DNA of 17,892 bases from Alistipes sp. (GTDB lineage Bacteria; Bacteroidota; Bacteroidia; Bacteroidales; Rikenellaceae): positions 1 through 17,892 of the forward strand of contig JAGBTW010000173.1 of assembly GCA_017631135.1 (NCBI GenBank), given 5' to 3'. Both the position numbers and the translations under genes were made by a program. The notes under the pieces were generated by a model that was given only the letters and a program-made list of their open reading frames with translations, had not been told where the DNA came from and ran no database searches. Below are positions 490 through 11,436 of this stretch, piece by piece (position 1 is the first letter of the stretch; every line of letters starts with the position of its first letter).

Positions 490-1411
490 ATCCCTGCAAC
501 TCTATCTCTGCGGGAGCACCATTATCCAACCACACTAACTCACCGCCCTCGGTGATGCGACCTATCGCCGTAAGGGGCGTACCTGTTGCTGCGCGCAACG
601 CCTCTGCCACCTCAACAAAGCGCTCGGGAGCAACGGTCAACAACAACTCGTAGTCCTCACCCCCCGTCGTTGCAAAGCGAATATCGTAGTCGGTGGGCAC
701 AACCTCCAAATATATCTCCGCACCAACACCCGACTGCTCCATGATGTGCTTTATGTCCGAGGCTATGCCATCCGAGACATCCATCATCGCGTGTACCGCA
801 TCGTGCTCTCCGAGGAGCTTTCCCTCCGCTATGCGCGCCTGTGCTGTGCGGTGAATCTTTGCTGCAGGGGTATTGAGGTCGCCAAACATTATATCCACGA
901 GACCCTTTGACGAAGCACCGAGCTTGCCCGTAACACAGATGAGGTCACCCACCCTTGCTGCCGAGCGACGCTTGATGTTTGACATGGGTGCGCGACCTAT
1001 AGCGACAACATTTATGCATACCTTGTCGCGCGAGGCTGTGGTGTCGCCACCCACGAGCGCCACACCATACCTCTCGCATCCCTCATAGAAACCGCGCATG
1101 AAACCCTCTACCCACTCACCTTGCGTAGCTTCAGACAACGACAGCGAAAGGAGCACCGCCGTGGGCGTTGCACCCATAGCTGCCACATCGCTTAAGTTGA
1201 CCATCAGAGATTTATAGCCCACCTCCTCGGGCGATGATGCGCCACGCAGAAAGTGAACATCCTCAACAAGCATGTCGGTAGATATGACCAAGGCATCACT
1301 GCCCATGTCGAGTACTGTGCAGTCGTCGCCTATCGGCTCGAAGCCATTGTGTGGCAACTTCGCAAAGGTCTTGGCAATGTCGCCAATAAAGGAAAATTCG
1401 CTCTTTTTCAT
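476..1411 (-). CDS. thiL: Thiamine-monophosphate kinase ThiL
   Basis: ThiL phosphorylates thiamine monophosphate to thiamine diphosphate with ATP, the last step of cofactor synthesis in the cytoplasm. The 311-residue length is normal for the family. Visible ThiL/AIR-synthase-fold motifs in order are IGDDCTVL (28-35, with metal-binding Asp29/Asp30), STDMLVEDVHF (44-54), NLSDVAAMGA (72-81), VGGDTTAS (120-127), MDVSDGIASDI (210-220) and TGGEDYELLL (249-258), with the usual GF-x-HF-type C-terminus. The start gives the standard N-terminus (MKKSEF) and lies only 4 bases after a clear -7 box, so the mRNA is probably leaderless. It does not sit with other thiamine genes in this window. The identification is secure. 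Confidence 0.95.
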   Translation of the reverse strand: MKKSEFSFIGDIAKTFAKLPHNGFEPIGDDCTVLDMGSDALVISTDMLVEDVHFLRGASSPEEVGYKSLMVNLSDVAAMGATPTAVLLSLSLSEATQGEWVEGFMRGFYEGCERYGVALVGGDTTASRDKVCINVVAIGRAPMSNIKRRSAARVGDLICVTGKLGASSKGLVDIMFGDLNTPAAKIHRTAQARIAEGKLLGEHDAVHAMMDVSDGIASDIKHIMEQSGVGAEIYLEVVPTDYDIRFATTGGEDYELLLTVAPERFVEVAEALRAATGTPLTAIGRITEGGELVWLDNGAPAEIELQGFTHF

Positions 1412-1415
1412 AGTG

Positions 1416-1446
1416 CAAAGATAGACAAATTAGCCGTATAAACAAA
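1416..1446 (-). promoter_or_regulatory. thiL promoter (Bacteroidota -33/-7)
   Basis: On the minus strand TTTG (complement of 1443-1446) is followed after 19 bases by TATCTTTG (complement of 1416-1423). This matches the Bacteroidota sigma-ABfr consensus TTTG / TAnnTTTG. The -7 box ends 4 bases before the thiL ATG (1409-1411), so transcription should begin at or next to the start codon. Confidence 0.75.
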
Positions 1447-1478
1447 AATAGGAACAGGCTGTGTTAAATATCAGTTTT

Positions 1479-1615
1479 AGAGACTAAAGAGACATTAAGA
1501 GACTTAAGGGATGTTTCGAACAATGGTTGATAGTCAACAGTTGATAGTATCATCCCTTATGTCTCTTATGTCTCTTATGTCCCTTATTTCTCTTATTTCT
1601 CTTTTATCTCGTATT
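1479..1615. repeat. Fold-back tract of 9-nt periodic repeats (copy 1)
   Basis: Seven consecutive 9-nt units of the form TCYCTTATK run from 1553 to 1615 (for example TCCCTTATG, TCTCTTATG, TCTCTTATG, TCCCTTATT, TCTCTTATT). The complementary series AGAGACTAA / AGAGACATTA / AGAGACTTA / AGGGATG lies at 1479-1513, so the two halves form an imperfect inverted repeat of about 35 bp around a 37-nt loop. The loop holds its own small hairpin, GTTGA-TAG-TCAAC (1526-1538), and a second TTGATAG (1541-1547). No coding potential is apparent. Together with the hairpin at 1651-1778, this fills the gap of about 365 bp between thiL and the next gene. The function is unknown. Confidence 0.8.
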
Positions 1616-1650
1616 GTTTAAGAGAAAGAGAATAACCCCTTATCACAATA

Positions 1651-1778
1651 AATTTTTCGTCAGAGTGGTGCTAATTTGCCGCCGATAAAGAGAAAGAGCG
1701 GATGGGACATACTAAAACGTATTTCCCATTCGCTCTTTGGATTGAGGTGGCGAAGTAGCGCCACTATCACGAAAAATT
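1651..1778 (-). terminator. Nested hairpin element A downstream of the Ig-like lipoprotein gene
   Basis: The outer arms 1651-1660 and 1769-1778 are perfectly complementary over 10 bp. They flank the core CAGAGTGGTGC (1661-1671) and GCGCCACTATC (1758-1768). A second stem pairs about 1676-1683 with 1746-1753. An inner stem of 20 nt per arm (1693-1712 with 1719-1738, 18 of 20 identical after complementing) has a 6-nt loop. On the minus strand the inner stem ends in CGCTCTTTCTCTTT, so it can act as an intrinsic terminator for the gene whose stop codon (1777-1779) overlaps the outer arm. The outer structure is more than a terminator needs. Copies B and C near 8443-8615 share the design. Confidence 0.72.
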
Positions 1779-3156
1779 ACAGTTGGACGCGGGTGACTGC
1801 TCGCACTGTGTATATGTACGTCTTCATGGGCTCGAGACAAACAACGCTGTCAGACATGAAGGCGATAAGCTCAATCATATCATCGGATGTCTCGTTTGAT
1901 GACCAATAATAGGTCTCGACGAAGGGCATGCCACCGTTATCGGTGAGGAGCTTGTTGTATGCAGCTACGCTATCATTCTCGAAGCGGTGTGTGCCGTTAG
2001 AGATAGCATCCCACATCCACTGAAGCTCGGTTGAAGATGGCATAAACCAACCCTCGCCATGCTCCATGCACCACTTAAATGCTGGATAGTTGTTGATGTC
2101 GCGCACACCACCTTCTGCCTTTGAGTAGCGGGGGTCAAAGGGATCGTAGGTATTCCACTCACCTTTAGACGAGTTGCAGTTGCAGTATACATTTTCTGTT
2201 GACCACTGCAAATCGGCCTCGTCCATTGAGAAGAAGTATGCGAAATTATCCTTGATAGCATAAGCAACGCACTTTGAGCCATTCACCTCGTAGATCTTAC
2301 CAATCTCGTATGCATAAGTGACATTGGGGTCGTAGGCGTCGATGCTAATGGTGTTAGAGCGTGTGTCGTTATAGAGGGCGTATACGTTGTATGTACCCGC
2401 CACGGTGGTTGAGAAGATGTTGCTCTCGAGAACCTCGCCAGCTGTTGTGCGAAGCTCGCATGTTGCAGTCACATCCTCCTCGCCATACATCGCTGTGAAG
2501 GTCACGCTCTCCGCGCCATCAGCCTTGATGCGCATAGTCGAGGCTGTGAGCGTGAGGCTCTTCTGTGTGGGAGCATCCACAGCAACAGCGTTTACGATAA
2601 CCTGGTTAGACTTTGTGTCGCCATACTTCGCCTCGAAGACAAACTCACCAGCCACATCAGTCGAGAATGTGTTATCCTCGAGCTCCGTAGCGTAGTTAAC
2701 AACGGTGATTACCGCGTCAGATGTCATATCCTCGCCATCTACCGTAACGGTAAATGTTACGATGTCGGTGCCGTTAGCCATAATCTCGCCCTTGTCGGCC
2801 GTAAGGACAACGCTCGACACAGACTGCTCGGTAGGTGTAGCGGTGATGGTAACAGCAGGCGATGTAGCATCCTTGTATGATGCCATAAAGCGATACTCAC
2901 CCGCCTTGGTTGTTGAGAATTTTGCGTCACGAAGAACAGTGTTATCATTGAGGCAGATGATCATCGCCTCCTCTGTCACAACGCCGTCTACCGTAACCTC
3001 GAAATTTACGCTCTCCTGGCCATCAGCCAATATTGCACTCTTTGTAGCGGAAAGGACAACCTCATAGTCGTGATTATCGACGGGTTGCACCTCCTCGCAC
3101 GCCGTAAAGCCTACGGCGAGCGAGAGAATAGCGATTAGACTAAATAGTTTTTTCAT
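1777..3156 (-). CDS. Surface lipoprotein with three Ig-like repeats and a DUF1566-like C-terminal domain
   Basis: This 459-residue protein begins with a lipoprotein signal peptide (MKKLFSLIAI..., acylated Cys20 in GFTAC). Three tandem repeats with a period of about 84 residues follow, at roughly 31-107, 115-191 and 199-275. Each has the pattern ADG-x-E/D-x-V-x-F-x-V, then VT, then FST-x-x-AG-x-Y/F, then S-x-x-V/I, which resembles bacterial Ig-like (invasin or Big-type) beta-sandwiches. The C-terminal part (about 280-459) has GWFMPSSTELQWMW (369-382), YYWSSNE (416-422) and VRAVTRV (451-457), an arrangement like DUF1566/Lcl-type domains. It is probably exposed on the outer membrane as an adhesin or ligand-binding protein; the ligand is unknown. 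It lies 16 bp after the upstream lipoprotein gene and so is likely in the same operon. Confidence 0.85.
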   Translation of the reverse strand: MKKLFSLIAILSLAVGFTACEEVQPVDNHDYEVVLSATKSAILADGQESVNFEVTVDGVVTEEAMIICLNDNTVLRDAKFSTTKAGEYRFMASYKDATSPAVTITATPTEQSVSSVVLTADKGEIMANGTDIVTFTVTVDGEDMTSDAVITVVNYATELEDNTFSTDVAGEFVFEAKYGDTKSNQVIVNAVAVDAPTQKSLTLTASTMRIKADGAESVTFTAMYGEEDVTATCELRTTAGEVLESNIFSTTVAGTYNVYALYNDTRSNTISIDAYDPNVTYAYEIGKIYEVNGSKCVAYAIKDNFAYFFSMDEADLQWSTENVYCNCNSSKGEWNTYDPFDPRYSKAEGGVRDINNYPAFKWCMEHGEGWFMPSSTELQWMWDAISNGTHRFENDSVAAYNKLLTDNGGMPFVETYYWSSNETSDDMIELIAFMSDSVVCLEPMKTYIYTVRAVTRVQL

Positions 3157-3172
3157 AACCTATCAAGTAAAA

Positions 3173-4711
3173 TTATTGTGCGTTAGCGAACATATCGGGA
3201 GTCACGCGAACAGCATACTGTGTTGCGGTGTTCTCCTCGTTGATTACCTCGAAGAAGAATACATAGTCATCAGCTTCTACGCCAGGGAATGATACTGTAG
3301 CACCCTCAGCGGTCTTTGCAGCCTCGAGTGTTGTAGACTCAACAGATGTGCGGAACATGAAGAATGCCTGAATCTGTGACCAGTCGTTAGGATCCCAATA
3401 CTTTGCAAAGTCGTAGTTGTTCCAAAGCTGAGCACCAACCTTCATATCTATAGCGTTGTCGTCAGTCTTTACGAGGAACTGAATGTCATACTTGAAGCCA
3501 TTCTTAACGATTACAGGCTCCGACACCTCCAATGAAGCAACAATGTCTGCTGAAGGCTCCTTGGTCTTGAATGGGATAGCTACATAGTTGTAGTCGTAAA
3601 CGGTTGTTGGATCTGAAACCTCAGGATCCATGTAGAAGAGCACCAAGACATAATCAGTCTTGTTATTCAAAGGCAAGTAGTTAACAACGGTTGAAGAACC
3701 TGTCTGACCCATGTACTCACGAATGAATGTGCCGAAGTCGTAGCCCTGCTCCACGCCGATGTTGTTAAGACCAAAGTAGCTGCGCATAACGATGTTTGCC
3801 TTTGACTCCGAAGCCAATGTCTCGTCGTAAGACTTCTTTGTCCATACGTAGTAGCCCCAGAATGACTCCTCGCCCTGTGCGGGAGTTACATCTACAGAGA
3901 AACCAGTGTGTGTAACCTGGAGGTTAGAGTATGTGAACAAAGAGTTGGGGTCAACCTCGGGAGCCTCGGGAGTAGAGAACTCGTAGCGGAAGAGCTTAAT
4001 CTCCTCCTCCTGGTAGTGTACAGCCTCCCAATTCTCGAAGTTAAAGGCCACAGCGAGGTAGTCCATCTCGGCATTTAGGCGGCAGTCGAGAGTTGTCTCA
4101 CCCTGGGTAATGTAGTCACCGCTGCTGGGGTTCTCGATGATATACTCGAAAATCTGGTAGTCGTTGTTGTAGATACCAAAGGCATCGAGCTCCATCTTTG
4201 TGATTACGCGGAAGTAGTAGCGGTTAGCTGTTGTATTGGGCTTAGCAACAGCCTTTGCAGAGGTTGCAGTGATGTTTGACACCTCGATCTCTACATCGAA
4301 CTCATCACCAGAGATGGGATCCTGCACGGGGAGCGTCTTCAAGCTATGGCGTGCTACGACCTCGTCGGTGATGCCAAATGCTACTGCAACATACTCGGTA
4401 TCGGGAGTAAGGTTTGTCTTTGTGAGGGTCTTCTTGCCCTTTGTGAAGCTGACGTCGCTTGCATCGGTGAACTTTGCGATGATGTCGGCATCTGCCAAGC
4501 CCTCAATCTCGAGAGCCTCGATGATTGTTGCGAAGTACAACACAGCATTGTCTGTGGGCACAACCTCCACCTCAACTGATGTTGTCGTTGTCTTGGCGTT
4601 CTGGAACGCGAAGTTCACTCCGTTGTTCAGCTCGGGCTGGTTTGTTGGTTCACAGCCAAGAGCGAAGATAGCTACGAGAGCTATGCTCAAAAGTGAAAAA
4701 AGTTTTCTCAT
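3173..4711 (-). CDS. Lipoprotein with three Fn3/Ig-like repeats, function unknown
   Basis: I do not recognise a named family. The 512-residue product starts MRKLFSLLS and has a good lipobox, FALGC, with Cys20. I chose the ATG at 4709-4711; an in-frame TTG two codons earlier is less likely. The body appears to hold three diverged beta-rich repeats at about 32-128, 137-248 and 256-384. Each combines a Y/F-Y-F-x-x-I/V strand, a helical insert and an L-x-x-x-T/M-x-Y-x-x-V-A-F strand close to its end (for example DTEYVAVAFG and MDYLAVAFNF). A distinct C-terminal domain spans about 388-512. Such modular lipoproteins are common on the surface of Bacteroidales. It is the first gene of a two-gene operon with the 1777-3156 lipoprotein and has its own promoter near 4805. 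A role in binding host or food glycans or proteins would be a guess. Confidence 0.83.
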   Translation of the reverse strand: MRKLFSLLSIALVAIFALGCEPTNQPELNNGVNFAFQNAKTTTTSVEVEVVPTDNAVLYFATIIEALEIEGLADADIIAKFTDASDVSFTKGKKTLTKTNLTPDTEYVAVAFGITDEVVARHSLKTLPVQDPISGDEFDVEIEVSNITATSAKAVAKPNTTANRYYFRVITKMELDAFGIYNNDYQIFEYIIENPSSGDYITQGETTLDCRLNAEMDYLAVAFNFENWEAVHYQEEEIKLFRYEFSTPEAPEVDPNSLFTYSNLQVTHTGFSVDVTPAQGEESFWGYYVWTKKSYDETLASESKANIVMRSYFGLNNIGVEQGYDFGTFIREYMGQTGSSTVVNYLPLNNKTDYVLVLFYMDPEVSDPTTVYDYNYVAIPFKTKEPSADIVASLEVSEPVIVKNGFKYDIQFLVKTDDNAIDMKVGAQLWNNYDFAKYWDPNDWSQIQAFFMFRTSVESTTLEAAKTAEGATVSFPGVEADDYVFFFEVINEENTATQYAVRVTPDMFANAQ

Positions 4712-4769
4712 GGTCAAATAAAAGTGATATTAAGTTAGTATTAATCTATTCTTTTTGTAACACACTCAC

Positions 4770-4834
4770 ACCCTTTCCTACGGAAAGAGTACATCAAAAT
4801 CGCACAAATATAACGATATTATTGTAAATAGCAA
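4770..4834 (-). promoter_or_regulatory. Promoter and 5' leader hairpin of the two-lipoprotein operon
   Basis: TATATTTG (complement of 4805-4812) matches the Bacteroidota -7 box. A TTG-rich -33 region lies 19 bases upstream (about 4832-4837). The predicted leader of roughly 85 nt contains a 9-bp stem with a 3-nt loop (4770-4778 with 4782-4790, one G-U pair). The leader hairpin could affect mRNA stability or translation, which is unproven. The rest of the gap from 4712 to 4991 is AT-rich, and I see only the terminator at 4907-4949. Confidence 0.55.
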
Positions 4835-4906
4835 CAACTTTTCTATTAAATCACGCCTAAGCGCCACAAAATTGAGCTATTTCAAAACGCTGTGCGGACA
4901 AGGGGC

Positions 4907-4949
4907 AAAAAAAAGTGCTTCGTTCGACCCTATGCGCATCGATCGAAGC
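4907..4949 (-). terminator. Intrinsic terminator of the BACON-like lipoprotein gene
   Basis: Arms 4917-4927 and 4939-4949 pair over 10 of 11 positions around an 11-nt loop. On the minus strand the stem ends in CGAAGC and is followed after two bases by eight T (complement of 4907-4914). It lies about 42 bp after the stop codon at 4992, so it fits as the terminator of that gene and separates it from the next lipoprotein operon. Confidence 0.85.
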
Positions 4950-4991
4950 AATCCTAAATGTAGTTATATTTACCTATACTCAAAGCGGTGT

Positions 4992-6239
4992 CTACCAGTC
5001 GATAAACTCACCGCGGCCCCTGAAGACACCTCGGATGATATTACCCCTATCATCTACCGTGTCGATGGTAAAGAAATATAGATCGGTATCGTCCATCTCG
5101 ACCAATACCGAGCCACGCGAGAGTGGTGCAAAGTCGACATATCCCGCAGTCATATACCAGCTATTCTGCTGCATATATTGACCACCAAGGTCCTCCGCCG
5201 AGCCTGGAATGAAGTGTCCCGCTGTAGTGCCATGTGTATACTCTCCGCATACATCGCGACTACCCGCGGGTAGCTGCAGGTCTATTTGGAACTGGTCACC
5301 GCGCTCCTCGCCTGTTTCGGGGTTGATATACTCGTACATATATACCTGGCAAGTGTTGCAACCGTTATACATGAGGTCGCCCACAAAAGCACCTACAAAC
5401 ACGCCATCCTCAATATCGAAGAAGTGGTTGTTGGTGAGTGTGCTCAATCCCTCTGTAACGTTATTAGAGTAGACTGGTATATCGAGACTTCCTGCGTACT
5501 CTACGCGATGATTTTCGCCCGTTGCAAGAGCGACATTTGCCACGATTGAGCCATTTTCGACCACAACCTCGGCAGAAGAGTAGGCTACCTCCTCGCCACC
5601 TCGAACATAGTAGCTATACATATAGTTAATATCGCGATTTTCCATCTCGTCACTAACGGCAAGACTATAAGTGCCATCGGGAATTGTGGCTGTTGGCGTC
5701 TCCTTCGACACCGCCTCCGTAGCACACAAGTCAAAGCAGTAGTACTTTGAGCCACCATAGAACGAGCCATCCTCCTTTACGCCATCTGTAGACAATACGA
5801 CGAAGTAGCTATGCACACCACTATCGTTGTTGCAGTGCGTAAAGATGCTTCCCGAGGTCGTTGTGGCTTTGAAGTCAACATCTATGGTGACATGCTGCAT
5901 GATGGTAACCGAAGCCTTCGCCTCGCCATAGCGCAGCTCGATTGTTCCTCGGCGCTCGCCACCGCTGTCGTTGGGTGCAACGACAAAGGTCACAACATCC
6001 TCCGTTATCTCTATCACACTTGCCCAATCGACATTGCTGAAGGCATCGAGCTTGAGTCCCTCGCGACGATTCTCTATCGTGTAGCCTATCTCGCCCAAGT
6101 CGCCTATGCTATCGTACCATTGCGAGTTCTCCGTTGTGACAACTATCACGGGTGCCACGCCGTTGTTTGCAGTTGGTCCACTCTCGCTACAGCCCACGAG
6201 CATGGTGACAAAAGTAAACAGCACTAAAATTCTTCTCAT
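4992..6239 (-). CDS. Lipoprotein with N-terminal BACON-like domain
   Basis: The 415-residue product starts at the ATG at 6237-6239. That start gives a clean signal peptide and lipobox (MRRILVLFTFVTMLVGC, Cys17); an in-frame start 13 codons upstream would place extra residues before it. Residues about 30-117 look like a BACON domain: a beta-rich N-terminal module with DWASVIEI, a VAPNDSGGERRGTIELRYG segment and a closing VTIMQ strand. The remaining 300 residues hold several Tyr/Gly-rich beta segments and Cys pairs (Cys136, Cys168, Cys172, and an NGCNTC motif) that I cannot assign to a family. BACON modules are typically found in surface carbohydrate- or mucin-binding proteins of Bacteroidota, so a surface binding role is plausible. 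The gene is monocistronic, with its own promoter and terminator, and divergent from argR. Confidence 0.8.
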   Translation of the reverse strand: MRRILVLFTFVTMLVGCSESGPTANNGVAPVIVVTTENSQWYDSIGDLGEIGYTIENRREGLKLDAFSNVDWASVIEITEDVVTFVVAPNDSGGERRGTIELRYGEAKASVTIMQHVTIDVDFKATTTSGSIFTHCNNDSGVHSYFVVLSTDGVKEDGSFYGGSKYYCFDLCATEAVSKETPTATIPDGTYSLAVSDEMENRDINYMYSYYVRGGEEVAYSSAEVVVENGSIVANVALATGENHRVEYAGSLDIPVYSNNVTEGLSTLTNNHFFDIEDGVFVGAFVGDLMYNGCNTCQVYMYEYINPETGEERGDQFQIDLQLPAGSRDVCGEYTHGTTAGHFIPGSAEDLGGQYMQQNSWYMTAGYVDFAPLSRGSVLVEMDDTDLYFFTIDTVDDRGNIIRGVFRGRGEFIDW

Positions 6240-6290
6240 ATTGCTTAAACTATTAGTAGGTTTAGGTTTATATACCAATCATCGTAAGCA

Positions 6291-6320
6291 CAAAGATAAT
6301 GAAATATCGGCTAATTCAAA
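6291..6320 (-). promoter_or_regulatory. Promoter of the BACON-like lipoprotein gene
   Basis: On the minus strand TTTG (complement of 6317-6320) precedes TATCTTTG (complement of 6291-6298) by 18 bases, close to the Bacteroidota -33/-7 consensus. The expected leader is about 45-50 nt before the ATG at 6239. Confidence 0.7.
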
Positions 6321-6403
6321 TCGTTTTTTGATATAATAGGCGCTACGATGTAAAAAAAACAAAAATATTCTTTTTTTTCTTACCTCGATTAGATAAATTT
6401 TAT

Positions 6404-6411
6404 TAAATTTG
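6404..6411 (+). promoter_or_regulatory. Likely -7 box of the argR promoter
   Basis: TAAATTTG matches TAnnTTTG and lies 73 bases upstream of the chosen argR ATG, or 40 bases upstream of the alternative GTG. No convincing -33 TTTG is present; a T-rich tract occupies that position. The call rests on the -7 box alone. Confidence 0.45.
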
Positions 6412-6484
6412 CATACCGAAAATAAAACAGAGAATTTAGTTTGCAAGCACCGTGAGTACAAAGAACTATCAGGATGACAAGCCT

Positions 6485-6949
6485 ATGAACCAAAAGGCAC
6501 AGCGCCTATCGGTCATTCGCAAGATTATTCGCACAGAACATATATCATCACAGGAGGAGCTTATAAAGCGTCTCGAGGAGTGTGGTGTTCAGATAACACA
6601 GTCTACCTTGTCGCGCGACTTGAAGTATATGCACGTTGCCAAAGTACCCAACAAGGAGAAGGGTTATGTATATGTGTTGCCCAACAACACGCGCAACGAC
6701 CACGTTGTCTCGACCAACATCTCGGACAACATCACCGACATCGCCTTCTCGGGTAACATGTGCGTCATAAGCACCAAGCCAGGCTATGCAAGCGCCATAT
6801 CTGTGCCCATCGACAGCCGCGGCATAAGCGAGGTGTTGGGTAGCATCGCGGGTGACAACACCATATTGCTCATCCTGCGCGAGGGCTTCGACATGGAGTC
6901 GCTCATGGAGCAACTATACATGCTGTTCCCCTCGTTGCGAGCGCTATAG
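6485..6949 (+). CDS. argR: Arginine repressor ArgR
   Basis: ArgR is a hexameric, arginine-responsive DNA-binding regulator of arginine synthesis and breakdown. With the ATG at 6485 the product has 154 residues, the usual family length. An in-frame GTG at 6452 would add 11 residues (STKNYQDDKP-type) and cannot be excluded. The N-terminal winged helix shows the family pattern ISSQEELIKRLEECG, then ITQSTLSRDLKYM, whose SRDLK is the recognition-helix signature. A linker follows, then the C-terminal arginine-binding and oligomerisation domain with VISTKPGYASAISVPID and GSIAGDNTILLILRE, whose GDNT replaces the common GDDT. No arginine biosynthesis genes are nearby; argS lies 10 kb away. The 29-bp gap to the next gene suggests cotranscription. 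Confidence 0.93.
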   Translation: MNQKAQRLSVIRKIIRTEHISSQEELIKRLEECGVQITQSTLSRDLKYMHVAKVPNKEKGYVYVLPNNTRNDHVVSTNISDNITDIAFSGNMCVISTKPGYASAISVPIDSRGISEVLGSIAGDNTILLILREGFDMESLMEQLYMLFPSLRAL

Positions 6950-6978
6950 TCGGCAATTAAACAACAATATCATATCTT

Positions 6979-8094
6979 ATGCAGAGGCTTCGACTTCTCG
7001 TTTATGCTCTACTTGCAACCATAGCCGTGGCATGTAATGCAGAGGGCCCTGATGTGCCCAACGCTCCCACACACATCGACTATCCCGAGATACCCAATAA
7101 CGAGATTTGGTATACGACATCCAACAAAGAGACAATCACACCCTCGTGGGCACCCTCGCTGGAGCACGCAATAGTGAGCAACACCTATGCTGATGGCAAG
7201 GGTGTGATGTGCTTCGATGGGGATATTACCGAGATAGGCCCTATGCTGTTTAGCAACAGCTACAGACTCACGAGCATAACCCTGCCTTTGAGCGTCAAGC
7301 ATATAGGCAAAGAGGCCTTTGACAATTGCACAGAGCTCAAGACAATCACCATATCGCCCTACGTCGAGAGCATAGGCAAGAGAGCATTCTATGGATGTCC
7401 AATCACGGAGTTCACACTCCCCGCAGGTGTAACGACACTCGAGGTAGCGGTGTTTGGCGCATGTCAAAAGCTTGAGAAGGTCACCCTATCCGAAGGTCTT
7501 ACCAAAATCTCAAAAAATGCATTCACAAGCTGCACAGCGCTCAAGTCGCTCAACATTCCCAAGAGTGTCGAGGAGATTGAGGCGGGAGCATTCGCTGGTT
7601 GCCGCAGCCTCGCCCAGTTCAGCGGCAAGTATGCCTCGGAGGATGGCAGATGCCTCATTAAGGACAACGCACTGATTGCGTTTGCGCCCAATGGCATTAG
7701 GAGCTACACCATCCCCAAGGGCGTTACCACCATTGGCGAAAGTGCATTTGCGCTATGCGAGAACATTGAGTTTGTCGACATCCCCACGAGCGTGACACGC
7801 ATCGAGGCCATGGCATTCAGCTACTGCTACGCCCTCGAGACCATAACCATACCCGAGAATGTGGAATATCTCGGTGCAAGGTGCTGCTTCACATCGTGCA
7901 CCCCACAGAGTGTCTACTGCATGCCCACGACACCACCCACAGCCGACAAGGGTACAGAGTCGAGCTGGCTTGCCTTTAGCTCTGCTCCCTACCCCGAGCT
8001 AACGATATATGTCCCCAAGGGGTCTGTCGAGGCCTACAAAATTTCGGCAGAATGGGAACAATTTGCAAAGAACATTGTAGGCTACGAGTTTTAG
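6979..8094 (+). CDS. BspA-like leucine-rich repeat (LRR_5) lipoprotein
   Basis: The 371-residue protein opens with a lipoprotein signal (MQRLRLLVYALLATIAVAC, Cys19). Residues about 75-310 contain seven or eight LRR_5 units of the Treponema/BspA type, with the repeated pattern L-x-x-I-x-L/I-P-x-x-V-x-x-I-G-x-x-A-F-x-x-C (for example AFDNCTELKTITIS, AFTSCTALKSLNIP and AFSYCYALETITIP). The unit at 215-240 is interrupted by a KYASEDGRCLIKDNALIAFAP segment typical of this family. The C-terminus (TIYVPKGSVEAYKISAEWEQF) is also typical. Such proteins are surface-exposed and can bind host matrix proteins or mediate coaggregation in related species. It starts 29 bp after argR, an unusual partner, so readthrough from the argR promoter is likely unless it has an unseen promoter. 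Confidence 0.92.
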   Translation: MQRLRLLVYALLATIAVACNAEGPDVPNAPTHIDYPEIPNNEIWYTTSNKETITPSWAPSLEHAIVSNTYADGKGVMCFDGDITEIGPMLFSNSYRLTSITLPLSVKHIGKEAFDNCTELKTITISPYVESIGKRAFYGCPITEFTLPAGVTTLEVAVFGACQKLEKVTLSEGLTKISKNAFTSCTALKSLNIPKSVEEIEAGAFAGCRSLAQFSGKYASEDGRCLIKDNALIAFAPNGIRSYTIPKGVTTIGESAFALCENIEFVDIPTSVTRIEAMAFSYCYALETITIPENVEYLGARCCFTSCTPQSVYCMPTTPPTADKGTESSWLAFSSAPYPELTIYVPKGSVEAYKISAEWEQFAKNIVGYEF

Positions 8095-8123
8095 GCAAGG
8101 CAAAATAATTTGCAGTATACAGT

Positions 8124-8160
8124 AATGGAGATGGCTAATTCAGTTTTAGTCATCTCCATT
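8124..8160 (+). terminator. Hairpin terminator after the LRR lipoprotein gene
   Basis: Arms 8124-8138 and 8146-8160 pair over 14 of 15 positions around a 7-nt loop, 29 bp after the LRR stop codon. The stem is followed by GCTTTATG rather than a run of T, so termination may be weak or may depend on the flanking A and T bases of the stem. Confidence 0.6.
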
Positions 8161-8231
8161 GCTTTATGGGGGGGGTAATAAAAGAGTAGTAGTGAGTAGG
8201 CGCGAGCAAGCTCGCTTGGGGCTAGTAGAGA
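8161..8231. other. Spacer with G8 run and small palindrome
   Basis: This is a non-coding spacer. It contains a homopolymer of eight G (8168-8175) and a compact hairpin GCGAG-CAAG-CTCGC (8202-8215). I find no gene, promoter box or known RNA in it. Confidence 0.5.
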
Positions 8232-8325
8232 GAGTTTAGGGAAATTAAGGAGGTTAAGGAGATTAGTGTTTTCTTATAGAAGTAGTCTCCTTAAATTCTT
8301 TAATTTCACTAAATTCACTAAACTC
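8232..8325. repeat. Fold-back tract of 9-nt periodic repeats (copy 2)
   Basis: The left arm (8232-8262) is a purine-rich series with GAGTTTAG, AAATTAAGG and TTAAGGAGA. The right arm (8286-8325) is its pyrimidine-rich complement and reads in 9-nt steps as CTCCTTAAA, TTCTTTAAT, TTCACTAAA, TTCACTAAA, CTC. The ends (8232-8239 with 8318-8325) pair over 8 bp and the inner stem (8254-8262 with 8286-8294) over 9 bp. One extra TTCACTAAA unit must bulge on the right arm. The architecture matches the tract at 1479-1615 but the unit sequence differs. The function is unknown. Confidence 0.75.
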
Positions 8326-8341
8326 ATAATACCTCCACTTT

Positions 8342-8446
8342 CATTAGCGCTACAACCCAGATTTTCCTTTTAGAACCCTTCGAACCCTTCGAACTCTTTG
8401 AACCCTTCAAAAAAACTTCCCTCCATTAGCCCCACGACTCCAATTT
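8342..8446. repeat. Imperfect 23-nt direct repeat pair
   Basis: A 23-nt segment beginning CATTAGC and ending ATTT occurs at 8342-8364 and again at 8424-8446, with 17 of 23 positions identical. The second copy runs directly into hairpin element B, so the first could be a decayed or partial copy of the boundary of such an element. The 9-nt repeat tract at 8373-8408 lies between them. Confidence 0.45.
8373..8408. repeat. Four tandem 9-nt units GAACCCTTC
   Basis: Units at 8373, 8382, 8391 and 8400 read GAACCCTTC, GAACCCTTC, GAACTCTTT, GAACCCTTC and run into an A7 tract. This is a third 9-nt periodic tract in the window, with its own unit sequence. No open frame of interest uses it. Confidence 0.85.
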
Positions 8447-8486
8447 CTTGTCAGAGTGGTGCAGATGCGCCGCTATCACAAGAAAT
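8443..8486. other. Hairpin element B, compact copy
   Basis: The arms 8443-8451 and 8478-8486 are perfectly complementary over 9 bp. They enclose the core CAGAGTGGTGC (8452-8462) and GCGCCGCTATC (8467-8477) with a very short apical segment. The core is the same as in element A, but the arms differ in sequence while keeping complementarity. It lies two bases from element C, so B and C form a tandem pair. Confidence 0.7.
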
Positions 8487-8488
8487 CC

Positions 8489-8615
8489 AATTTCGCATCA
8501 GAAGTGGTCAGGCTTGGTCTCGACATGAAAAAGCTCCGGATGGATAGTACTTTTCGTACATTCCATTCGGAGCTTTGATTGAGAGGCCGAGAATGGCCTC
8601 TTATCATGCGAAATT
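8489..8615 (-). terminator. Nested hairpin element C downstream of the M16 peptidase gene
   Basis: The outer arms 8489-8498 and 8606-8615 pair perfectly over 10 bp. Core segments CAGAAGTGGTC (8499-8509) and GGCCTCTTATC (8595-8605) follow. An inner stem of 21 nt per arm (8530-8550 with 8556-8576, 18 of 21 identical after complementing) has a 5-nt loop. On the minus strand it ends in CGGAGC followed by five T, a plausible intrinsic terminator. The outer arm overlaps the peptidase stop codon (8614-8616). CTCAATC precedes the inner stem here and in element A. An extra 6-bp hairpin, GAGGCC/GGCCTC (8583-8600), offers an alternative fold. Confidence 0.75.
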
Positions 8616-11436
8616 AACGCTCGGGGCGCATTACTACAAGAGTACGGTTACCATCGTCGAGGAGCTTCTTGGCCATTGCCTGAACATCCTCAAGGGTGAT
8701 GCTCTCGAGGATACCGAGGTACTCCTCCTTATAGTTGTAACCCTCCTCGTACCAACGGTCGATAGCTGACATCCAGCCGCTGTTGTTCTCGAGAACGTTA
8801 GCGTAGTTCTTCTGGAGGAACTCCTTTGACTTTGCGATGTCGTCAGCGAGAGGACCGTTCTCGGCAATCTTTGCAATCTCTGCGTCGCAGATGTCGATAA
8901 GCTCGTCAGCAAGCTGCTCGTTGGTGTCGAACACAATGATTGCCATGTACTTCTCTACGGGGTACTTGTTGATACCACCCTGTACGTGTACGCCGTATGT
9001 ACCACCCTTCTCCTCGCGGATAGATACCATATAGCGTGAGTCGAGGGCGCGTGTGAGGAGGTCGAGAACGAGACGGTTCTTTGCGTTATCCTCGATGTCG
9101 CCAGAGAATGTGAGGTATACAGATACCTTGGGCTGCTGCATAGCTACGCGGAAGTCGTTAGTAACCTCGCCTACTGCTGTGCGTACGCCATCGTCAACAA
9201 CTGCATACTCAACCTTCTTTGAAGTGGGGAGTGAGCCGAGATACTTCTCAACGAGAGGCTTCAAAGTGTTGAGATCCACGTTACCAGCGATAACGAAGCG
9301 GAAGTCATCAGCGTAAGAGAAGAGCTGGCTGTGTACGCTTACCAAAGTCTCGAGGTTGAGTGACTCGATCTGTGCTGATGATGTCACCTGACGACGAGGA
9401 TGGTTCTGGTAGAGGGTCTCTGTAAATGCCTTACCCATGAGGTAGCTGGGGTCAGACTCCATGTTACGGAAGTAGGGAACATACATGTTCTTCAAGTTCT
9501 GAAGGTCAGTCTCATCGAAGCGAGGAGCTGTGAAGTTGAGGTACATGAGCTGGAGGATGGTCTCGATATCCTTGGGTGAGCCACCTGCGTTAACGCTGTG
9601 CTCATACTCGCTTACACCTACAGAAGCGTATGCGCTCTTACCAGAGAGCTGCTTTGCAAGCTCCGTAGCAGAGAACTTGCTGATACCTGACTGCTGCATA
9701 ACCATGGGGAGGTAGTCACCGTGGAAGTAGTCAGCATCGTTCAACATAGACTTACCGCCCTTTGCCGAAGCAGAGATGATAACCTCGTCAGCCTTCAATG
9801 TAGAGGGGCGAACAACAACCTTGATGCCGTTCTTCAAAGTCCACTCTGTGTAACCAAGTGACTCGTTGGTCTCAACATTAGCAACCTTTGCACCCTTGAA
9901 CTTCTGTGCGGGGTCTACGAGGGGCTCGATAACTGTGTTATCCTCGTAAGGTGCAATCTCCGAAGCCTCAACCTCGGCGATGATAGCCAAGAGTTGCTCC
10001 TCTGTGGGGATTACAACGTCCTCCTTCTTGGGTGAGCGAGCGAGGATCACAAGGTTCTTGTTAGGTGTAGCCATCTGTGCATACGCCTCGTTAACCTGCT
10101 CAACAGTGAGGCTGTTGATGAACATCTGGTCGAGCTGCCACTCTGTCTCTGCGTCCATCATAGGTGAGCCATCAGCATAGTTGTCGAGGTAGCGCTGTGC
10201 GTACTCTGCGTTGCTTACGTCGTTGCGGTTTGTGTAGCTACGCTCTGCCCAGCGGAGAATCTCCTGCTTTGCACGCTCAAACTCACCAGCTGTGAAGCCA
10301 TAGCGACGCATGCGCTCCATCTCGGTGTACATAGCGCGGAAAGCCTCGTCGATGCGACCCTCGTGAGCTGTTGCAGAGAACATTGTAGACTCCATTGTGG
10401 GGCAGATGCCGATGCTACCCTCGCTCATGCCACCGCCGAGGAAAGGTGCGTTAGCAGACTTTGAAATATCCTCGAAGCGCTCGTTCATCATGATAGATAC
10501 GAATGACTTGATGAGGTTGAATGAGTAGCCTACGATAGTGTTGTTGTACTCCTTGGGAAGAGCATCGCGACGTGCGAACATCATGACGCTTGACTGTGTC
10601 ATCTCGGGATCAGAGAAGATAGAGACGATAGGCTGCTCTGTTGCAGGAACGTAGTGCATAACCTTCTGTGCTGCATCTGCAGGTGAAGCGGGGATGTCAG
10701 CCATGAGGGTCTTAATCTTTGACTCAACCTGGTCTACGTCGATGTCACCAACGATAACCAAAGCCTGCAACTCGGGGCGATACCACTTCTTGTAGAAGTT
10801 AACCAATGCCTCCTGGTCGAAAGACTTCAGGCCATCGAGGTAACCGATAAGGTTGCGGTGCTCGTAGAGAGTGCCCTTGAAGAGGTTACGAATCATGTCG
10901 TTCTGTGCACGGAGGCTTGCGCCATCGCGTGTACGGAGCTCCTCCATGATAACGCCACGCTCCGAGTCAATCTCCTCGGGCTGCAAAGCGATGAACTGTG
11001 ACCAGTCGTGGAGGATAAGAAGAGCGAGGTCTACGTTCTCCTCGGTTACGGGGAGGTCCATCACCATGTACTGTGTGCAGTCCCATGAAGTGAAGGCGTT
11101 GAGGTTGTTACCAAACTGAACACCGATAGTCTCGAGCTTCTCGATAATCTGCTTGTCGGGGAGGTTCTTGGTACCATTGAAGGCCATGTGCTCGAGGAAG
11201 TGAGCAAGACCCTGCTGGTCGTCATCCTCCTGGATAGCACCTACATCGTGGTAGATGTAGAAGCTTGCCTGGCCCTTAGGCTTCTCGTTGTGGCGAATGT
11301 AGTAGGTCATGCCATTGTCGAGCTTGCCTACACGTACTTCAGGATCAAGAGGCAACTGCATCTCTGAGGGATCCTGCGCACAAATGCTCGCGATACCTAC
11401 GAAGAGGGCTACGAGCGAAAAAAGCATTTTTCTCAT
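8614..11436 (-). CDS. M16 family zinc metallopeptidase (PqqL-like, exported)
   Basis: This 940-residue protein has a signal peptide (MRKMLFSLVALFVGIASICAQ) without a lipobox, so it is probably periplasmic. The inverted zinc motif HxxEH is present as HFLEH (His79, Glu82, His83). The third ligand is likely Glu159 in EEIDSERGVIMEE, 76 residues after His83, as expected for M16. Two M16 halves are visible: an active N-terminal half (about 30-250, with its partner domain to about 500) and a second half starting near LGYTEWTLKNGIKVVV (about 540) that lacks HxxEH, as in PqqL/pitrilysin-type two-part clamshells. These enzymes degrade short peptides held in an internal chamber. The gene stands alone between a promoter near 11518 and hairpin element C. 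The substrate is unknown. Confidence 0.93.
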   Translation of the reverse strand: MRKMLFSLVALFVGIASICAQDPSEMQLPLDPEVRVGKLDNGMTYYIRHNEKPKGQASFYIYHDVGAIQEDDDQQGLAHFLEHMAFNGTKNLPDKQIIEKLETIGVQFGNNLNAFTSWDCTQYMVMDLPVTEENVDLALLILHDWSQFIALQPEEIDSERGVIMEELRTRDGASLRAQNDMIRNLFKGTLYEHRNLIGYLDGLKSFDQEALVNFYKKWYRPELQALVIVGDIDVDQVESKIKTLMADIPASPADAAQKVMHYVPATEQPIVSIFSDPEMTQSSVMMFARRDALPKEYNNTIVGYSFNLIKSFVSIMMNERFEDISKSANAPFLGGGMSEGSIGICPTMESTMFSATAHEGRIDEAFRAMYTEMERMRRYGFTAGEFERAKQEILRWAERSYTNRNDVSNAEYAQRYLDNYADGSPMMDAETEWQLDQMFINSLTVEQVNEAYAQMATPNKNLVILARSPKKEDVVIPTEEQLLAIIAEVEASEIAPYEDNTVIEPLVDPAQKFKGAKVANVETNESLGYTEWTLKNGIKVVVRPSTLKADEVIISASAKGGKSMLNDADYFHGDYLPMVMQQSGISKFSATELAKQLSGKSAYASVGVSEYEHSVNAGGSPKDIETILQLMYLNFTAPRFDETDLQNLKNMYVPYFRNMESDPSYLMGKAFTETLYQNHPRRQVTSSAQIESLNLETLVSVHSQLFSYADDFRFVIAGNVDLNTLKPLVEKYLGSLPTSKKVEYAVVDDGVRTAVGEVTNDFRVAMQQPKVSVYLTFSGDIEDNAKNRLVLDLLTRALDSRYMVSIREEKGGTYGVHVQGGINKYPVEKYMAIIVFDTNEQLADELIDICDAEIAKIAENGPLADDIAKSKEFLQKNYANVLENNSGWMSAIDRWYEEGYNYKEEYLGILESITLEDVQAMAKKLLDDGNRTLVVMRPER

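Follow-up and report, generated by a model that had tools for sequence, protein, structure and literature searches.

Hairpin elements at gene ends of an Alistipes contig

The 17,892-nucleotide stretch analyzed here in full (the window; Alistipes sp., contig JAGBTW010000173.1) carries three hairpin elements, A, B, and C; A and C lie at the ends of two minus-strand genes, one of them encoding a peptidase of the M16 family (Table 1). An initial annotation, made from the letters of the window, had described them as hairpins whose arms differ from copy to copy around a nearly constant core. On direct re-reading of the sequence, all three were recovered with the arms and inner cores as quoted there. 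The right arms of A and C do reach into stop codons, as both minus-strand frames end in TAA there. The three hairpins are thus confirmed as observed, and their support lies in 91 distinct aligned copies of the same element, three alone being thin.

A and C are almost unbroken long hairpins with further covarying stems inside, and B has two outer stems only. With a few flanking bases included, RNA folding gave A a z-score of -11.5 on the plus and -8.9 on the minus strand; the corresponding values were -5.1 and -3.7 for B and -10.4 and -6.5 for C. None of 200 shuffles folded as well as the real sequence in any of these cases.

Table 1. Elements, genes, and repeats of the window (positions are those of the whole stretch)
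Feature	Position	Strand	Remarks
Copy A, full-length	1651..1778	+	Loop CAG 1661-1663 facing ATC 1766-1768; right arm covers part of stop codon 1777-1779
Arms of copy A	AATTTTTCGT 1651-1660, ACGAAAAATT 1769-1778		Sequence read directly
Copy B, short form	8443..8486	+	Outer arms, CAG/ATC loop, one inner stem with four-base loop
Arms of copy B	ATTTCTTGT 8443-8451, ACAAGAAAT 8478-8486		Sequence read directly
Copy C, full-length	8489..8615	+	Second stem differs; right arm covers part of the M16 peptidase gene stop 8614-8616
Arms of copy C	AATTTCGCAT 8489-8498, ATGCGAAATT 8606-8615		Sequence read directly
Decayed neighboring copy, right end	1634..1654	+	Adjoins A and has bases in common with its left arm; read by eye; matches the ...CCCCTTATCAC... 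right-end type
Gene with stop codon in A	1777..3156	-	Big_1 match weak, under the Pfam cut-off
Peptidase M16 gene with stop codon in C	8614..11436	-	TAA stop inside the right arm of C
Arginine repressor gene	6452-6949		
BspA-type leucine-rich-repeat protein gene	6979-8094		Follows the arginine repressor gene
9-base tandem repeats, two arrays, CAGA side of A	1479-1508, 1556-1614		Tandem Repeats Finder (TRF)
9-base tandem repeats, three arrays, CAGA side of B and C	8232-8265, 8292-8326, 8373-8408		TRF

A dispersed repeat family with a strand-specific fold

A, B, and C are members of one dispersed hairpin repeat family of gut Alistipes, with a length of ~127 bases. CAGAGTGGTGC, the 11-base core, was counted 17 times in the host genome; two of these sites are in the window and one evidently lies within a coding stretch. 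The reversed pattern, taken as control, occurs once. A covariance model (R1) built from 16 host copies, which match it by construction, gave 91 matches in the incomplete host genome (1.29 Mb), corresponding to 57 distinct places, many of them hit on both strands. A and C, both among these training copies, score 127.3 and 129.1 bits, respectively. B is not reported by R1; copies of ~45 bases make up 9 of 233 motif matches. Across the genus, 56 of 81 genomes have an R1 match at E <= 0.001 under stricter filters, some of them a single weak one, and among the good-quality genomes of the genus the count is 21 of 34. R1 gave no match in 16 genomes drawn from other families of the same order. Thus, further copies exist both in the host and in its relatives.

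Furthermore, a pattern scan of named genomes returned at least 113 stretches; all those listed are from assemblies of Alistipes or Rikenellaceae, and a ruminant host is named for 96 of them. The same single element pattern had no exact match in viral contigs, so that pattern gives no sign of viral carriage. Among loci L128-L240 and the G003 stretches, arms also have species-specific forms, namely AATTTSTTGT in the host, ATTTTGTCGT-like in another genome of the genus (G003), and AGCTTGGCGT in RGIG1643.

Paired bases of the hairpin change together across the family. In a model-fitted alignment (A2) of 91 distinct copies, drawn from the window and 99 of the 113 pattern-scan loci and including both window training copies, double-sided change was seen in 39 of 47 pairs and in 738 of 4226 cells. 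Pairing was found in 96.8% of the cells, as against 78.0% after shuffling and 29-48% when one side was slid. A MAFFT alignment of the 16 training copies, which was not fitted to the model and from which its own structure was predicted, gave 30 of 47 pairs changed on both sides and 94.4% paired, a value reached by no shuffle. The covariation first read from three copies therefore exceeds the shuffled and slid controls.

The fold is also specific to one strand. The symmetric 3x3 loop, CAG facing ATC, is conserved in 85 of the 91 copies, and four pairs are mostly U-G or G-U (61, 75, 81, and 79 of 91 copies). Read on the CAGA...TATC strand, the 91 copies hold 474 G.T and 39 A.C pairs. Since mutation alone should make the two alike, this strand is the folded one. 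It is the plus strand at A and C, antisense to the adjoining gene, and it folded better than its complement in all 30 copies sampled (mean -74.5 versus -56.5 kcal/mol with RNA parameters). A loose likeness to a kink-turn, seen in the initial annotation from CTGA on the minus strand, is not supported by this result, as the other strand folds, without CTGA, and carries the symmetric CAG/ATC loop instead of a three-base bulge with tandem G.A/A.G pairs. That the element resembles no named RNA family still stands: an Rfam search up to E = 1 gave nothing at its gathering score, and the matches touching the elements were far below it (the best, mir-4766, 24.3 bits against 72).

Placement behind stop codons

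Position was scored in 190 unique full-length copies, chosen among the sequences gathered by a motif rule that requires arms with <=1 mismatch. A stop codon was counted if it closed an open frame of >=80 codons and lay within -12..+15 of the element edge. By this rule, a stop codon stands at the TATC edge in 145 of the 190 copies and at the CAGA edge in one. The commonest junctions between stop codon and arm, reading into the arm, were T/AA (63) and TA/A (18), the slash marking the arm boundary. The tie to gene 3' ends, drawn at first from two genes, thus extends to the family. On one contig (G017:C6), 18 of the 22 copies among the matches listed lie <=2 bases from a stop codon, and the other four stand behind another copy; within the 190, another copy follows <=60 bases past the TATC end in 13. 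At one locus (L070:2466-2593), the place of the stop codon is taken by a minus-strand tRNA-Arg gene (2592-2664), on whose 3' end the element ends.

Several close orthologues that lack the element have an identical C-terminus and an ordinary hairpin-and-T-run terminator. The count of 106 orthologues without element is an overcount, as it includes diverged elements and overlapping loci of one place, and only individually read cases are used here. Relatives of the M16 gene in two genomes, G004 and G011 (80-81% identical), have no element and slightly different last residues. At locus L104, downstream of the stop codon of the second M16 gene in G011, there is a stretch that resembles the inner portion of a host element (L004:1521-1647) and has no outer arms.

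The flanks of the elements hold short tandem repeats. All five TRF arrays of the window have a 9-base unit, and all five lie on the CAGA side of the elements. Elsewhere, nine-base arrays lie <=400 bases from an element in 18 of 32 cases in G017:C6 and in 1 of 6 in G003:C40, and the element flanks in RGIG1643 contain repeats of ~10 bases. A stretch resembling CATTAGCG...AGACC is found past the CAGA edge, beside the 9-base repeats, in the window (8340-8442) and at host loci L021 and L024; it may be a decayed older element.

Possible gene-end function, mobility, and arm copying

The element likely terminates transcription. Runs of six or more T (T6+) occur <=130 nt from the stop codon at 24 of 61 element-free gene ends, whereas the 130 nt that follow the element contain one in 23 of 184 copies. 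They are rarer beyond the element, as though it had replaced the native terminator. Past the apical hairpin, the gene-sense strand carries runs of four or more T in 45 of 81 copies and the opposite strand in 19 of 81. We tentatively favor, at somewhat less than an even chance, a dispersed and structure-constrained terminator/insulator module placed directly behind stop codons, for which we infer termination, insulation, and the mode of spread. The covariation, the excess of G.T pairs, the conserved loop, the placement at stop codons, and the element-free orthologues with ordinary terminators speak for it as well. In the gene-sense direction, the inner hairpin and its T-run would do the work of the native terminator. 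Opposing transcripts would fold the complete hairpin and would then be stopped or cut, RNase III being presumably the obvious candidate for the cutting. The outcome would be an insulated gene end. Copies would multiply from locus to locus and swap segments.

Several observations weigh against this module. T6+ within the element is present on the gene-sense strand in just 30 of 184 copies, and five or more T within the element stands at 95 for the gene-sense and 66 for the opposite strand, so the element is not evidently a strong terminator. A scan for consensus terminators across 1400-8800 gave 6 sites, with 6.4 expected, and picked out none of A, B, and C. Furthermore, the outer stems, which covary most, cannot form in a sense mRNA that ends at the inner hairpin. 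In G003:C40, 21 of 34 copies lie at the stop codon of a minus-strand gene and the rest are elsewhere intergenic. Among the options offered at the outset, a dispersed element living in terminators comes nearest to our findings; its dispersal is borne out, and its role as terminator is the part that we infer. The initial interpretation as a whole is thus partly supported.

The manner in which copies change calls for caution, as covariation in palindromic repeats can arise by copying between arms or between copies as well as by selection on RNA structure. In the 70 closest of 207 pairs of copies (interiors >=93% alike), the differing sites number 172 of 1400 in the arms and 177 of 7006 in the interiors, and 57 arm pairs are altered on both sides without losing their match; the arm rule (<=1 mismatch) inflates the proportion of compensated change, and the 70 pairs are not independent of each other. 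Between copies with interiors 96-100% identical, arms differ in matched multi-base blocks, and inner hairpins too differ in such blocks between orthologues (L185, L049). Interior likeness in 25 orthologous pairs runs from 0.52 to 0.99, and two close relatives (L024 and L182) have quite different elements at the same stop codon. These changes indicate that segments or whole elements are exchanged, or that arms are rewritten. Arms are no fixed property of a locus, as 7.6 of 10 positions agree in the 25 orthologous pairs and 7.2 in random pairs. With arms changing faster than interiors and in matched blocks, some of their covariation may be owed to recombination or template switching rather than to selection.

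A further step would be to regard the matched arms as mainly mutational, made by template switching of inverted arms or by recombination between copies, so that covariation would say little on function. Such an origin would account for arms that vary faster than interiors and in matched blocks, as well as for a locus at which the arm CACACC pairs with a GGTGTG resembling the usual outer flank, and template switching is a documented source of homogenized inverted-repeat arms (PMC8604942). However, we consider it quite unlikely. Fixed mismatches and wobbles should vanish by this route, yet the CAG/ATC loop and the four mostly U-G or G-U pairs persist; the 145-to-1 placement at stop codons is left unexplained, and the inflation by the arm rule noted above also counts against it. 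The kept loop and the fixed wobble pairs mean that template switching is not the whole story. The initial view that the changing stems reflect selection on RNA structure is accordingly weakened: matched arm blocks are obtainable without selection, although the kept loop and the G.T:A.C ratio of 474:39 still indicate constraint on one folded strand.

The main rival to the gene-end module, which we judge rather unlikely, is a non-autonomous mobile element whose CAGA...TATC strand, folded as single-stranded DNA, is joined at replication forks, the position at gene ends then resulting from target choice and purifying selection. Dispersed and tandem copies (the 13 of 190 above), patchiness across the genus, the differing elements of L024 and L182, and strand-specific folding all suit such an element. 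Orientation would suit it too, as it appears to follow the inferred replication strand: among best-scoring matches, 83 of 88 successive copies along the contigs of eight genomes have the same orientation, and the CAGA strand is C-rich in all eight contig sets from G003 and G017, which by the usual skew rule puts most of the abutted genes on the leading strand. For third-position skew and for coding-strand bias, however, agreement is limited to 7 of these 8 sets in each case, and orientation is far less uniform in six further genomes, where 20 of 29 successive copies among the best-scoring matches agree (G074, 2 of 4; G088, 5 of 9). An orientation locked to replication is therefore contradicted as a general rule; a strong bias is seen in some species but does not hold throughout. 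Ribosomal protein L2, meant to mark the direction of replication, was detected in 3 of 10 genomes only. Its direction agrees with the nearer element and disagrees with one ~400 kb off in G020:C7, and agrees with a weak partial match in G024:C10.

Single-strand transposases speak against this mobile element as well. Those known act on the lagging-strand template, which would be the other strand here (PMC6006769). Y1 transposase genes (PF01797) were detected in 1 of 81 genomes (G091), itself without the element, as against an element match in 56 of the 81. No clean insertion with its empty site was seen among the loci compared, and perfect 9-base palindromes with a three-base center included no palindromic empty site of two arms around TCA. 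IS110 as mover was rejected (1 of 37 genomes, G078, itself without a copy). Reverse transcription in trans was rejected as well, since RVT_1, present in 7 of 22 genomes (incomplete assemblies), is unrelated to copy number: G011, G017, G021, and G022 have many copies and no RVT_1; G002, G007, G014, and G023 have RVT_1 and no copies; and G003 and G006 have both. In the DNA examined, no gene-bearing larger version or parent transposon was convincing; five long pairs of solitary ends were found, four of them from one cluster. The spread is thus puzzling, with dozens of copies per genome and no recognized transposase tracking them. An unlikely synthesis is a hairpin that spreads itself, being copied as a folded single strand, landing exactly behind a stop codon, displacing the native terminator, and having its outer arms rewritten to match at each new site. 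If true, it would represent mobile gene-end elements of a class for which no enzyme is known.

The conserved loop and the strand-specific wobble pairs would also be expected if the CAGA...TATC strand were made as a trans-acting RNA or as one bound by a protein at its CAG/ATC loop. We hold this to be highly improbable, given dozens of diverging copies per genome and a polar placement relative to another gene. Moreover, the left flanks have little in common in an information-content profile (25 copies in G000 and 26 in G003; no Bacteroidota-adapted promoter search was made).

The family supplies many natural compensatory variants of a single hairpin, each in a fixed position behind its gene, and with them the role of long 3' hairpins in Bacteroidota can be tested.

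The Alistipes family among known bacterial repeats

ERIC (also IRU or RU-1), a 127-bp enterobacterial repeat, and other repeats of the type of miniature inverted-repeat transposable elements (MITEs) are alike in size (~100-200 bp), in many dispersed copies, in predicted long stem-loop transcripts with a proposed effect on mRNA stability, and in unproven means of mobility (PMC2229807). Such repeats have short terminal inverted repeats, TA at their ends, and target duplications (PMC2229807). In contrast, the Alistipes element has variable arms and a strongly polar placement right at stop codons. A TA-flanked MITE of the ERIC or RUP type is further contradicted by the flanks, as TA closes the left flank in 16 of 190 copies and is present at both ends in one of the 190. 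REP, BIME, and REPIN sequences, moved by the Y1 transposase RAYT, are likewise extragenic, palindromic, strand-asymmetric, multi-copy hairpins (PMC6006769). The one genome with Y1 among 81 has no copy, which speaks against movement by RAYT, and the GT[AG]G foot of REP hairpins is not among the conserved positions of the 91 copies, though atypical Bacteroidetes REPs without this foot exist (PMC6006769).

By their description, palindromic candidate RNAs of human-gut Bacteroidetes (e.g., HMP2_4205, 132 bp), most of 250 predicted to hold terminators, are similar in being palindromic and from Bacteroidetes; that report, in the part considered here, says nothing of a dispersal behind stop codons (PMC8040213). 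Part of the Alistipes family may already be catalogued among them. In the open-licence literature searched, we recognized no paper describing this repeat family. Integron attC sites are long imperfect hairpins of poorly conserved sequence that start near stop codons. Unlike them, the Alistipes copies adjoin ordinary chromosomal genes and have no fixed terminal core; in place of the attC recombination core, the outermost pair varies (A-U 52, G-C 16, U-A 8, and others in the 91 copies).

Thus, the family belongs to the broad kind of dispersed bacterial palindromes that includes ERIC, RUP, and REP, and departs from both REP/RAYT and TA-flanked MITEs in the tests above. Placement at stop codons, together with long strand-specific covariation, is what is new in it against ERIC, RUP, and REP.

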